Part shown: positions 53,742 to 56,004 of the stretch, one piece after another
Position numbering within the stretch: position 1 is the stretch's first letter
Layout: each line of letters starts with the position of its first letter
Assembly (NCBI RefSeq): GCF_041261445.1
Contig: NZ_JBGCCU010000043.1
Span: forward strand, 1-64,000
Length of the DNA: 64,000 bases
Reading direction: 5' to 3'
Source of the DNA: Catenulispora sp. EB89
GTDB taxonomy: Bacteria > Actinomycetota > Actinomycetes > Streptomycetales > Catenulisporaceae
The notes under the pieces: generated by a model
What the model saw: the letters and a program-made list of their open reading frames with translations, nothing else
Told to the model about the DNA's origin: nothing
Database searches by the model: none
Position numbers and translations under genes: made by a program

Positions 53742-53783
53742 GGGGTCGGCGGCTTCACCACCATGTGAAGATGCGGCAGCCAT

Positions 53784-53805
53784 GTAACCCGCAGCCCCGT
53801 CGGCC
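53784..53805 (+). promoter_or_regulatory. possible ECF-type promoter of the sigma gene
   Basis: GTAACC at 53784-53789 resembles the -35 (AAC core) of ECF/SigE-family promoters, with a plausible -10 around 53806. Weak evidence. Confidence 0.25.
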
Positions 53806-53850
53806 GGTGTGTCCAGTGATGTACTGGCCACCGACCGACGAGGGGCGGGC

Positions 53851-54468
53851 ATGGAAGGGACGATCGCCGAAAGGCGGTTGCGGGCACGAGGCGGGGGATC
53901 GGCGGCGAGCCCGCCGCACGAGGACTCGTTCCGCGAGTTCGTGGAGGGCTCCTGGCACCGCCTCCTCCGCACGGCATACCTGCTGACCGGCGACCACGGC
54001 GCGGCCGAGGACCTGGTCCAGACCGCGCTGATGCGCACCTACCGGCACTGGAACCGGATCGTGGCCTACGAGGCCCCCGAGTCCTACGTCCGCCGGGTCA
54101 TGGTCAACGCCAACATCTCGGCGTGGCGCCGCCGCAAGGCGGTCGTCCACGTCATGGCCGAGCCGCCCGAGCCGCCGGCCGGCGGCTCGGGCGGCTCGGG
54201 CGACCATCAGGACACGTACGCCCTGCGCGACGAGCTGTGGCGCGCCGTCTGCGCGATGTCGCCGCGCATGCGCTCGGTCTTCGTCCTGCGCTACTTCGAG
54301 GACCTGACCGAAGCCGAGGTCGCCTCGGTGATGGGCTGCGCGGTCGGCACGGTGAAGAGCCAGATCGCGCGCGGCCTGACGAGACTCCGTGGCGACCTTC
54401 AAGCCGACCAACCGGATCGAACCAACCAAGCCGATCGAACCAACCAAGCCGAGGGGAGAACGCGATGA
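53851..54468 (+). CDS. SigE-family RNA polymerase sigma factor
   Basis: A 205-residue extracytoplasmic-function-type sigma factor of the actinobacterial SigE family. Region 2 is LRTAYLLTGDHGAAEDLVQT...YRHWNRI with SYVRRVMVN; region 4 is VLRYFEDLTEAEVASVMGCA with GTVKSQ. An in-frame GTG exists at 53809; the ATG at 53851 is chosen because members start shortly before region 2. The C-terminal tail repeats DRTNQA twice, encoded by a perfect 18-bp tandem repeat. Its stop overlaps the next gene, a degenerate transpeptidase-like membrane protein that may sense or regulate it. Confidence 0.9.
   Translation: MEGTIAERRLRARGGGSAASPPHEDSFREFVEGSWHRLLRTAYLLTGDHGAAEDLVQTALMRTYRHWNRIVAYEAPESYVRRVMVNANISAWRRRKAVVHVMAEPPEPPAGGSGGSGDHQDTYALRDELWRAVCAMSPRMRSVFVLRYFEDLTEAEVASVMGCAVGTVKSQIARGLTRLRGDLQADQPDRTNQADRTNQAEGRTR
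54415..54450 (+). repeat. 18-bp perfect tandem repeat in the sigma gene
   Basis: GATCGAACCAACCAAGCC occurs at 54415-54432 and 54433-54450, adding six residues to the sigma factor tail just before its stop. Confidence 0.85.
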
Positions 54469-55832
54469 AAGCCCGCGACCCGGAAAGCAACCGCGCCCCC
54501 CACGGCGACGCCCTGGAACACGAGTTCCGCGCGATGTTCGCCGAACGCTCGGAAACGGTACCCATGACCACCGCGCCCTACGCCGCGGTACGCCGCCGCA
54601 TCACCGCGGCGCGCCGCAAGCGCCGGATGCGCATCGGCAGCGTCGGCGTGGCGTTCGCGATGGCCGTCGTCGGGATCGGCGTGTGGACGACGGTCCCGAG
54701 CCGTCATCAGGGTGCTGTCCAGCCGGGCACGATCGATCCCCACCTGCCCGCCGCCGTCCTCTACGCCGACGGCCGCACCCCGATCCCCAGCGGCCCGCTG
54801 CGGGACGCCGCGCTGACCTGGCTCCGCGCCGCCCACCCGGGAGACCTGTCCGGGCTCACCGTGGTGACCACGTTCGATCAGGCCGTCCAGAACGCCGCCA
54901 CCGCGAAGATCGAGGCCGGCGACGCCGGCGTCGCGGTCGTCGACGACCGCGACGGCGCGGTGGTGGCGCTGGCCGGAACCTGGAACCGGCCGCTGCCGAT
55001 CGCCGACCTGATGAAGCCCGTCCTGCTGGCCCAGGCCTTTGAAGGCGGCCACTACACGCCCGAGTCGAAGGAACCGCTCGACGCCCAGACGCACCCGCTG
55101 TACTTCCCTCCAGGGTCGAAGCAGCCCATGACGTACGCGCTCTCCGGGAACCAGACCAGGAACTGGCCGCCGGAACCGTCCAACACGCTGATCCCCGACG
55201 TCGACGTCACTCTGACGCAGGCCGCGCAGATGGGCGCCAACGAGCCGTTCGCCCAGCTGGAACTGGCCTCCGGCATGGACGTGCATTCGTTCGTCGGTTT
55301 CGCGATGCGCGCGGGCATGGCGAAAGAGCCGGATCTCATGCCGATACCCCCGCTGGTATTGGGAGAGACGAAGCAGACGCCGCTGGTCATGGCGAGCGTC
55401 TACGCGACGCTCACCGGCGGCGGCCTCCACCGGGATCCCCTGATGGTCGGGCAGTTGCTCGGGCCCGACGGCAAGGTGGTGTGGACCCCGCCCGCGATGG
55501 CCACCCGGGTCACGACGGCGAACAGCTCGAAACAGGTCACCGACGTCCTGCACGCGGCCCTGGCCGGCCCCACGGGGACCGGCATCGACGCCCTGCGCAA
55601 AGACGACTCCTCCACCGGCGCGATGGCCGCGGCGCCCGACACCGAGTTGTCGGCGTGGGTCACCGGTGTCGAATCGCACTACGCGATCTCGGTGGGGGTC
55701 TCCAACGAGGGCAACAACGGTTCCCTCGCCCCGCTCGGTTACGACCACCACGGCGGGCTCGACTTCGCCAGCAGGATCGCCGGGCCGACGTGGTCGGACG
55801 TCGTGCGGGCGGTGCGGAACCTCGCGCCGTGA
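54465..55832 (+). CDS. membrane pseudo-transpeptidase (penicillin-binding-protein-like, catalytic motifs lost)
   Basis: A 455-residue single-pass membrane protein (helix ~57-77) with an extracellular domain that follows the order of a PBP transpeptidase: LTVVTTFDQAVQNAA (linker strand/helix), GDAGVAVVDDRDGAVVALAG, then the SxxK position reads DLMK (D181, K184), the SxN position reads GAN (257-259), and the KTG position reads STG (383-385). All three motif starts are replaced, so acylation is not expected. The PLVMASVYATLTGGG segment is well preserved. ATGA overlap with the sigma gene suggests a partner such as an anti-sigma or cell-wall sensor (inference). Confidence 0.72.
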   Translation: MKARDPESNRAPHGDALEHEFRAMFAERSETVPMTTAPYAAVRRRITAARRKRRMRIGSVGVAFAMAVVGIGVWTTVPSRHQGAVQPGTIDPHLPAAVLYADGRTPIPSGPLRDAALTWLRAAHPGDLSGLTVVTTFDQAVQNAATAKIEAGDAGVAVVDDRDGAVVALAGTWNRPLPIADLMKPVLLAQAFEGGHYTPESKEPLDAQTHPLYFPPGSKQPMTYALSGNQTRNWPPEPSNTLIPDVDVTLTQAAQMGANEPFAQLELASGMDVHSFVGFAMRAGMAKEPDLMPIPPLVLGETKQTPLVMASVYATLTGGGLHRDPLMVGQLLGPDGKVVWTPPAMATRVTTANSSKQVTDVLHAALAGPTGTGIDALRKDDSSTGAMAAAPDTELSAWVTGVESHYAISVGVSNEGNNGSLAPLGYDHHGGLDFASRIAGPTWSDVVRAVRNLAP

Positions 55833-55948: not shown

Positions 55949-56004
55949 GTGAGCCGTGAGCCGTGAGCCGTGAGCCGTGAGCCGTGAGCCGTGAGCCGTG
56001 AGCC
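55949..56004. repeat. eight perfect copies of GTGAGCC
   Basis: A 7-bp unit repeated eight times without error (56 bp), in the convergent spacer 24 nt beyond the stop of the DUF885 gene. Its perfection suggests recent slippage. Confidence 0.95.

Follow-up and report, generated by a model that had tools for sequence, protein, structure and literature searches.

A SigE-family sigma factor of Catenulispora is paired with a conserved membrane protein that carries a predicted dead transpeptidase domain

The ways in which bacteria monitor their peptidoglycan are largely an open question, and a gene pair of Catenulispora sp. EB89 raises it in an unusual form: what could a sigma factor have to do with a membrane protein that looks like a transpeptidase without its catalytic residues? 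The pair lies in a window of 64,000 nucleotides (the whole stretch of DNA that was analyzed; contig NZ_JBGCCU010000043.1, positions 1 to 64,000, forward strand) and encodes a SigE-family extracytoplasmic function (ECF) sigma factor, followed by a partner whose outer part resembles the transpeptidase domain of penicillin-binding proteins (PBPs). Judged by the sequence comparisons described here, the pair is a real, conserved, and unusual variant of a sigma/receptor pair, and the partner is likely to act as a regulator or sensor, which agrees with the presence of about 50 sister pairs in the same genome.

An earlier note on this DNA, made from the sequence alone, had assigned the first protein to the SigE family, and the TIGR02983 profile bears this out with a score of 184.9 bits against a curated cut-off of 141.55. 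The ATGA overlap that it described between the two genes is likewise present, as the open reading frames (ORFs) 53851-54468 and 54465-55832 share 4 bases. From this overlap, stoichiometric expression of the sigma factor and its partner may be expected. The sigma start at 53851 is the choice of the earlier note; an alternative GTG start is found at 53809, in the open frame upstream.

The partner contains a single hydrophobic segment, residues 57-75, with a mean Kyte-Doolittle value of 1.90, the best value outside residues 40-95 being 0.89. Residues 35-56 include nine Lys or Arg and no acidic residue, and because of this basic stretch before the helix the N-terminus is predicted to be inside and the rest of the protein outside. 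The partner should consist of about 56 cytoplasmic residues, one helix, and an ectodomain on the outer side, in agreement with the topology suggested earlier; as predicted from hydropathy and charge, this is the layout of a membrane anti-sigma factor.

The structure prediction and profile searches that the earlier note had suggested as a check both point to a transpeptidase fold. Pfam model PF00905 matched the partner with 18.0 bits, under its cut-off of 22.1, and the NCBIfam PBP_1a family matched with an E-value of 2.9e-14 (52.8 bits; the cut-off of 508.75, which was not reached, applies to a whole protein). When a profile of the nine orthologs was compared with solved chains, PBP1b (5fgz) was matched with an E-value of 1e-15. 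A structure model of residues 93-455 (predicted local distance difference test, pLDDT, 82.5; predicted template modelling score, pTM, 0.87) was closest to class A PBPs among solved structures, with 3ue1_B (PBP1a) giving a Z-score of 36.6 and a root-mean-square deviation of 2.5 over 325 residues; a Foldseek search with the ectodomain model ranked Escherichia coli PBP1b first. The input alignment of this model comprised 13 sequences, namely six pseudo-PBPs (the partner type described here), six ordinary class A PBPs, and the PBP domain of an Acidimicrobiales locus (L089, see below). Because it includes real PBPs, the model is not independent proof of the fold; the PBP_1a match and the ortholog-profile match are independent of that alignment. 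A full-length model from 6 sequences reached a pLDDT of 33.2 and was not used. On the combined profile and model evidence, the outer part of the partner is a PBP transpeptidase by descent.

The active-site motifs of this domain have been lost. In the alignment, seven PBP domains read SxMK, SxN, and KTG where the partner reads DLMK, GAN, and MAA. The earlier note had stated that all three motifs lack their first catalytic residue, with STG as the third motif; this is correct for DLMK and GAN, whereas the third motif is MAA, which differs from KTG in all three residues. We rejected the STG reading (residues 383-385) because the PBP alignment places the KTG column at MAA, four residues further downstream, and because STG is present in 2 of 9 orthologs; the comparison of the ortholog profile with solved chains gave the same register for M387-A388-A389. 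Across the nine genus sequences, including the one studied here, the Ser of SxxK is replaced by Asp (9/9) and the Lys is retained (9/9), the sequence Asp-x-Met-Lys-Pro being unchanged in every ortholog. The SxN column reads GAN in six sequences and GAD, AAN, or AMN in one each, and the KTG column reads MAA in four, AAG in two, MPG in two, and MAG in one, with the Lys lost in 9/9. Since these losses are common to all nine sequences they are not due to chance, and the transpeptidase domain is, as read from its motifs, catalytically dead and devoid of a nucleophile.

Table 1 Coordinates of the sigma/partner pair in the window and of related loci.
Feature	Coordinates	Strand	Basis or remark
SigE-family ECF sigma factor, 205 aa	53851..54468	+	TIGR02983 profile; Pfam sigma-70 regions 2 and 4
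Predicted single-pass membrane protein with pseudo-transpeptidase ectodomain, 455 aa	54465..55832	+	Hydropathy, profiles, model; orthologs
Predicted cytoplasmic tail, residues 1-56, proposed sigma-binding segment	54465..54632	+	Conservation; related tails behind SigE-family sigma genes elsewhere
Predicted membrane helix, residues about 57-78	54633..54698	+	Hydropathy peak, residues 57-75
Pseudo-transpeptidase domain, residues about 128-445	54846..55799	+	Model of residues 93-455; class A PBPs best match
Former SxxK, now D-L-M-K, residues 181-184	55005..55016	+	Aligned with SSMK/SAMK/STMK of PBPs
Former SxN, now G-A-N, residues 257-259	55233..55241	+	Alignment with PBPs and orthologs
Column of former KTG, now M-A-A, residues 387-389	55623..55631	+	Alignment with PBPs and orthologs
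Promoter-like conserved block, TGTAACCCG ... GTGTC	53783..53813	+	Upstream of sigma gene; ortholog comparison
Sigma-linked membrane protein with YkuD (L,D-transpeptidase) ectodomain (L069)	L069 1393-2073 (own genome C15:198392-199072)		Relatives L107-L113
Sigma-linked MltG/YceG ectodomain (L030)	L030 1195-2457 (own genome C9:195594-196856)		
Sigma partner with DsbA-like ectodomain (L022)	L022 1238-2035		CPVC kept
Sigma partner with SecD P1-head-like ectodomain (L034)	L034 1142-2035		
SigE-like sigma overlapping one-helix PBP-domain protein, Acidimicrobiales metagenome contig (L089)	L089 866-3041		

A dead domain could simply be decaying, and the question of whether it has been kept was answered by comparison within the genus. 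The pair is present in nine of the ten Catenulispora genomes searched, the one studied here included, and the exception (G006) is a genome that is 77% complete; the eight other orthologs are 39-77% identical to the window protein. With the nucleophile and the KTG Lys gone in all nine, this survey upholds the co-occurrence that the earlier note had made a test of its proposal. In 8/8 orthologs for which flanking sequence exists, the partner gene is preceded by a sigma gene that overlaps it by 4 bases (ATGA or GTGA), and for the ninth (G005) one contig ends with the sigma gene and the tail and another begins with the ectodomain, so that the gene adjacency of a membrane anti-sigma factor is found throughout, in G005 across two contig ends. 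The tail is the best conserved part: mean pairwise identity among 8 sequences is 0.79 for residues 17-56, 0.55 for the transpeptidase domain, and 0.38 for the linker. The ratio of nonsynonymous to synonymous substitution rates (dN/dS), calculated for five overlapping pairs of sequences, is 0.55, 0.63, 0.73, 0.64, and 0.80 for the domain; for the tail it is 0.19, 0.12, and 0.26 in three pairs and 0.83 in one, with no change in the remaining one. By these comparisons the partner is a maintained pseudoenzyme.

The conserved block upstream of the sigma gene consists of two halves, TGTAACCCG and GTGTC, that lie 12-20 bases apart in 8/8 orthologs (that of the window and seven others). It is a putative promoter, provided that translation of the sigma gene begins at 53851 rather than at the upstream GTG (53809). 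The strict pattern, with no mismatch allowed, occurs once in the genome; a regulon search with it at zero mismatches returned no site besides that of the sigma gene, and for this reason we propose no regulon targets. On the other side of the pair, between the partner gene and a convergent downstream gene, the window contains eight perfect tandem copies of GTGAGCC (55949-56004).

The origin of the domain was examined in a tree of 27 transpeptidase domains, comprising the nine pseudo-PBPs and 18 of 20 further loci (L015 and L121 were unmatched and dropped). All nine pseudo-PBPs group together (support 100/99), and the sister group of this clade consists of L010 and L076, both class A PBPs of the genus (support 98/97), in a tree that leaves aside those class A PBPs that come from the other genus genomes. 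Owing to long branches, the remaining joins are unsure, including the placement of L089. The class A PBP L076, with STFK, SLN, and KTG intact, has in common with the pseudo-PBPs an insert from EPGSNSKPLFYPVG to FWPPNE, read by eye from the DNA. Because of the single clade, its sisterhood with L010 and L076, and the insert shared with L076, a single capture from a class A PBP of the Catenulispora lineage is the probable origin of the domain.

The pair is far from isolated in its genome, which contains 48 SigE-family sigma genes above the family cut-off. We examined 55 other SigE-type sigma genes, 47 above the cut-off and 8 below it, all with at least 107 bits, and took as partner the longest ORF that starts between -70 and +250 of the sigma stop and has a third-position GC content above 0.8. 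A downstream ORF was found by this rule for 54 of the 55 (L047 has none); its start lies between -60 and +50 relative to the sigma stop in 50/54 cases and at exactly -4 in 23/54. In 50 of the 55, the partner begins with a tail that is usually rich in Arg, its first hydrophobic segment starts somewhere in residues 35-116, and the ectodomain that follows is variable; L021, L029, L048, and L064 do not fit this layout and were excluded from the 50. The partner in L027 has extra hydrophobic peaks at residues 192-219 and hence is possibly not single-pass, and that in L075, also among the 50, has a zinc-finger-like anti-sigma start (zf-HC2, E-value 0.028, under the cut-off). This tail-helix-ectodomain layout is, by prediction, general in the genome.

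Pfam and NCBIfam scans were made with 53 proteins, the window partner and 52 others (L029 and L048 included, L021 and L064 left out). A few ectodomains belong to named families (YceG/MltG, YkuD, Thioredoxin_4/DsbA, the SecDF P1 head under its cut-off, and DUF4232), and most of the sigma-linked ectodomains of this genome (L021-L075) have no Pfam match. The NCBIfam models 'CU044_5270' and 'anti-sigma factor' matched 6/53 and 3/53 proteins weakly; in the proteins shown singly, these matches are far below the cut-off and run from the last part of the tail through the helix into the adjoining stretch. Mantel tests were applied to 50 pairs (the 54 partners with an ORF minus L021, L029, L048, L064, and L075, plus the window pair). 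The sigma factors are weakly correlated with the tails (rho 0.11; 27 of 2000 permutations as high) and give rho 0.10 with the helices (128/2000); the ectodomains do not track them (rho -0.05; 1468/2000).

Among the sister partners, one carries an ectodomain of the other class of cross-linking enzyme. This L,D-transpeptidase-like protein (L069) follows a sigma gene with 139.8 bits, slightly below the cut-off, and relatives with an upstream sigma gene occur in 8/10 genus genomes, that studied here included; for G002 and G008, ordinary L,D-transpeptidases alone were found. The catalytic Cys is lost in 8/8 of these proteins, its column reading Asp in four, Glu in two, His in one, and Gly in one, and where HAAPW is usual, its first His has been replaced in 8/8. 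Five ordinary L,D-transpeptidases of the genus have SHGC and HAAPW intact in the same alignment, and the two solved relatives shown for L069 have HGC at the Cys column.

The MltG-type partner (L030) is sigma-linked at 7/7 loci; mltG-like genes about 70% identical to it (L102-L105) have a sigma gene nearby in 0/4 cases, with neighbours named by eye, and are probably housekeeping copies. The genome studied here has an mltG-like gene besides L030, again at about 70% identity. At the Glu column, which we take to be catalytic from E. coli MltG, the L030 type has Gly in the genome studied here (SIAGSQ) and Gln in G007 (SIAQGE), a change in 2/7, and the first Glu of the motif is retained in the other five. 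We considered whether all sigma-linked peptidoglycan enzymes are dead and rejected this: because the MltG type keeps its motif in 5/7 and the DsbA-like partner (L022) keeps CPVC, loss of catalysis is not a design rule. As read from the alignments, catalytic loss is a conserved trait of both transpeptidase types, which the MltG type does not share. Two further stretches, G005:C153:4292-4579 and G003:C320:9717-10175, match the N-terminal part of the MltG-type partner alone and may be either fragments or a similar tail with a different ectodomain.

The order was searched with residues 1-245 of the partner (245 genomes, E-value 1e-5, up to 11 scored candidates in each), and no pseudo-PBP was found in the 235 genomes outside Catenulispora within this scope. 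Four of the 235 (G021, G365, G401, and G445) were matched, over residues 4-117 at most, and belong to another family of the order, probably Streptomycetaceae. Loci were read for three of these four. In two of them (L144 and L157) a SigE-family sigma gene above the cut-off (196.3 and 197.2 bits) runs up to the related tail, and no PBP model in Pfam matched the partners; the third (L156) has a partial sigma match (81.6 bits), and its frames appear broken. Ten tails from both groups have 11 invariant columns in common.

The Acidimicrobiales locus L089, known from one contig of one metagenome assembly, combines a SigE-like sigma factor (59.5 bits, under the SigE cut-off), whose gene overlaps that of its partner, with a partner that has a hydrophobic segment at residues 61-79 and intact PBP motifs (SAMK, SNN, KTG). 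Its first 287 residues were matched in 72/296 genomes of its class, with at most 8 candidates per genome scored. Nearly all of these matches start after residue 160, at the PBP part, and, its own genome aside, all start at residue 68 or later; a wide family of L089-type receptors was thus not found in these 296 genomes at 8 candidates each, a depth at which relatives were possibly missed.

Several characterized systems resemble the pair in part. In RsiV/sigma-V of Bacillus subtilis, the anti-sigma factor is itself reported to be the receptor for a cell-wall cue; RsiV binds lysozyme, and among the abstracts listed for it no transpeptidase-derived ectodomain is mentioned. In Clostridium thermocellum, a single genome is reported to encode several RsgI/SigI pairs, whose paralogous receptors each serve a different signal and have paralogous sigma factors, but they sense polysaccharide substrates. 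RsgI and SigI belong to other anti-sigma and sigma families than the Catenulispora pair. A model for the tail is provided by the short, class II-like type of anti-sigma peptide, in which two helices wrap around the cognate ECF sigma factor, although the Catenulispora tail matched no solved chain by sequence. Among the matches listed from the open-licence PubMed Central (PMC) literature, no report presents a pseudo-PBP or a dead L,D-transpeptidase as a sigma partner, and an earlier mention in surveys is possible.

According to PMC8092216, PbpP of Bacillus thuringiensis is a PBP-type protein that feeds an ECF sigma factor of envelope stress, sigma-P, but it is separate from the anti-sigma factor RsiP and needs its active-site Ser. 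The same text describes BlaR1/MecR1, membrane proteins with an extracellular transpeptidase-like sensor domain; PbpP and BlaR1 are both PBP-type sensors dependent on covalent beta-lactam binding, and the cytoplasmic protease domain of BlaR1 cleaves a repressor. The Catenulispora pair differs from PbpP in that the PBP-like domain lies within the sigma-linked membrane protein and has no Ser, and from BlaR1/MecR1 in the missing Ser (9/9), the roughly 56 predicted cytoplasmic residues, and the sigma partner. SigE-CseABC of Streptomyces coelicolor, as presented in PMC6767563 and PMC8999054, is similar in that it involves an ECF sigma factor of cell-envelope stress with PBPs and L,D-transpeptidases among its targets, but it is under two-component control, without an anti-sigma factor, and in a different operon.

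We consider it reasonably probable that the sigma factor is held by the tail and that the dead domain detects peptidoglycan, or a partner in the cell wall, by non-covalent binding. The pair would then consist of a SigE-family ECF sigma factor and a membrane-bound regulator that uses a dead PBP transpeptidase as its receptor ectodomain. The N-terminal tail of about 56 residues would hold the sigma factor at the membrane in the manner of a short class II-like anti-sigma peptide, and the dead domain, which retains the predicted PBP fold and the Lys of SxxK, would bind a peptidoglycan-related ligand without a covalent bond, the candidates being a stem peptide, a lipid-linked precursor, or a PBP or other cell-wall partner. 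Altered ligand binding, working through either proteolysis or a change of conformation, would free the sigma factor, which would then act on its own conserved promoter. In favour of this reading stand the overlapping sigma gene, the loss of the nucleophile and of the KTG Lys in 9/9, the well-conserved tail, the partners of similar layout behind 50 of 55 other sigma genes, the related tails with another ectodomain outside the genus, the dead L,D-transpeptidase partner, the L089 locus, and the weak correlation of sigma factors with tails. All this suggests a broken cell-wall enzyme kept as a cell-wall sensor. The interpretation offered in the earlier note, a pseudo-PBP acting as anti-sigma factor or as peptidoglycan or beta-lactam sensor, survives as far as a dead transpeptidase on a sigma-linked membrane protein, its conserved co-occurrence, and a likely sensor role are concerned; covalent beta-lactam sensing of the BlaR1/PbpP type is unlikely because the acylated Ser is absent in 9/9.

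A number of observations weigh against this proposal. The tail has no match to Pfam anti-sigma domains or to solved chains, searches that short class II peptides may escape, and its binding to the sigma factor is put forward here as a proposal. S. coelicolor SigE is reported to work without an anti-sigma factor (PMC6767563). The Mantel signal between sigma factors and tails is weak, and the tail-ectodomain correlation (rho 0.08; 98/2000) nearly equals it. The tail dN/dS of 0.83, from the pair G007/G009 with few sites, is no better than that of the domain, and the domain values of 0.55-0.80 mean relaxed constraint or diversification. The MltG-type and DsbA-like partners, moreover, retain their motifs (5/7 genomes and CPVC, respectively).

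The absent anti-sigma signature would also fit a protein with a structural or allosteric part in the cell wall, serving active PBPs as a scaffold; the sigma factor would then co-regulate this protein without being controlled by it. A fold kept without catalysis is compatible with such a protein, as is a position in the tree next to class A PBPs of the genus, but its cytoplasmic tail would hardly be expected to be the most conserved part, nor the tail-helix layout to recur with other ectodomains behind 50 of 55 other SigE-type sigma genes, and we regard this explanation as unlikely. A sensor of beta-lactams or muropeptides that is covalently acylated, as in BlaR1 or PbpP, has precedent in those two PBP-like sensors, the latter serving sigma-P (PMC8092216), and the L089 pair, with its intact motifs, could work in this way. 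The Catenulispora proteins, with Asp for the acylated Ser and no KTG Lys in 9/9, are very unlikely to do so because the acylated Ser is missing in every ortholog, though they may still bind such ligands non-covalently; according to PMC8092216, PbpP S301A at native level does not signal.

The invariance of Asp-x-Met-Lys-Pro in 9/9, which is beyond expectation for an abandoned site, could instead reflect an active enzyme of changed chemistry, with Asp181 and Lys184 in a new role. We give this a slim chance, since the SxN column (GAN, GAD, AAN, AMN) and the KTG column (MAA, AAG, MPG, MAG) vary, leaving no PBP-like set of catalytic residues that is constant. That the protein is a functionless, decaying duplicate of a class A PBP is scarcely credible: the loss of all three motifs and the domain dN/dS of 0.55-0.80 would agree with decay, but the open frame and the sigma linkage have been kept in 8 complete genes (that of the window and seven at 40-77% identity), and the tail dN/dS is 0.12-0.26 in three of five pairs.

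Returning to the dead transpeptidase as a non-covalent receptor, a wider reading can be offered tentatively, with doubt slightly outweighing confidence: D,D- and L,D-transpeptidases may both have been turned into conserved dead receptors that read cross-linking substrates non-covalently, a separate SigE-type sigma factor being assigned to each. The window pair may then belong to a modular family, spread over the genome, whose members combine captured envelope proteins with a short anti-sigma tail. A receptor built from a dead transpeptidase points to its likely ligand class. If the wider reading is true, the two dead cross-linking enzymes with separate sigma factors would represent two readable channels, and the approximately 50 related pairs would be a natural library for the envelope signals read by this sigma family.

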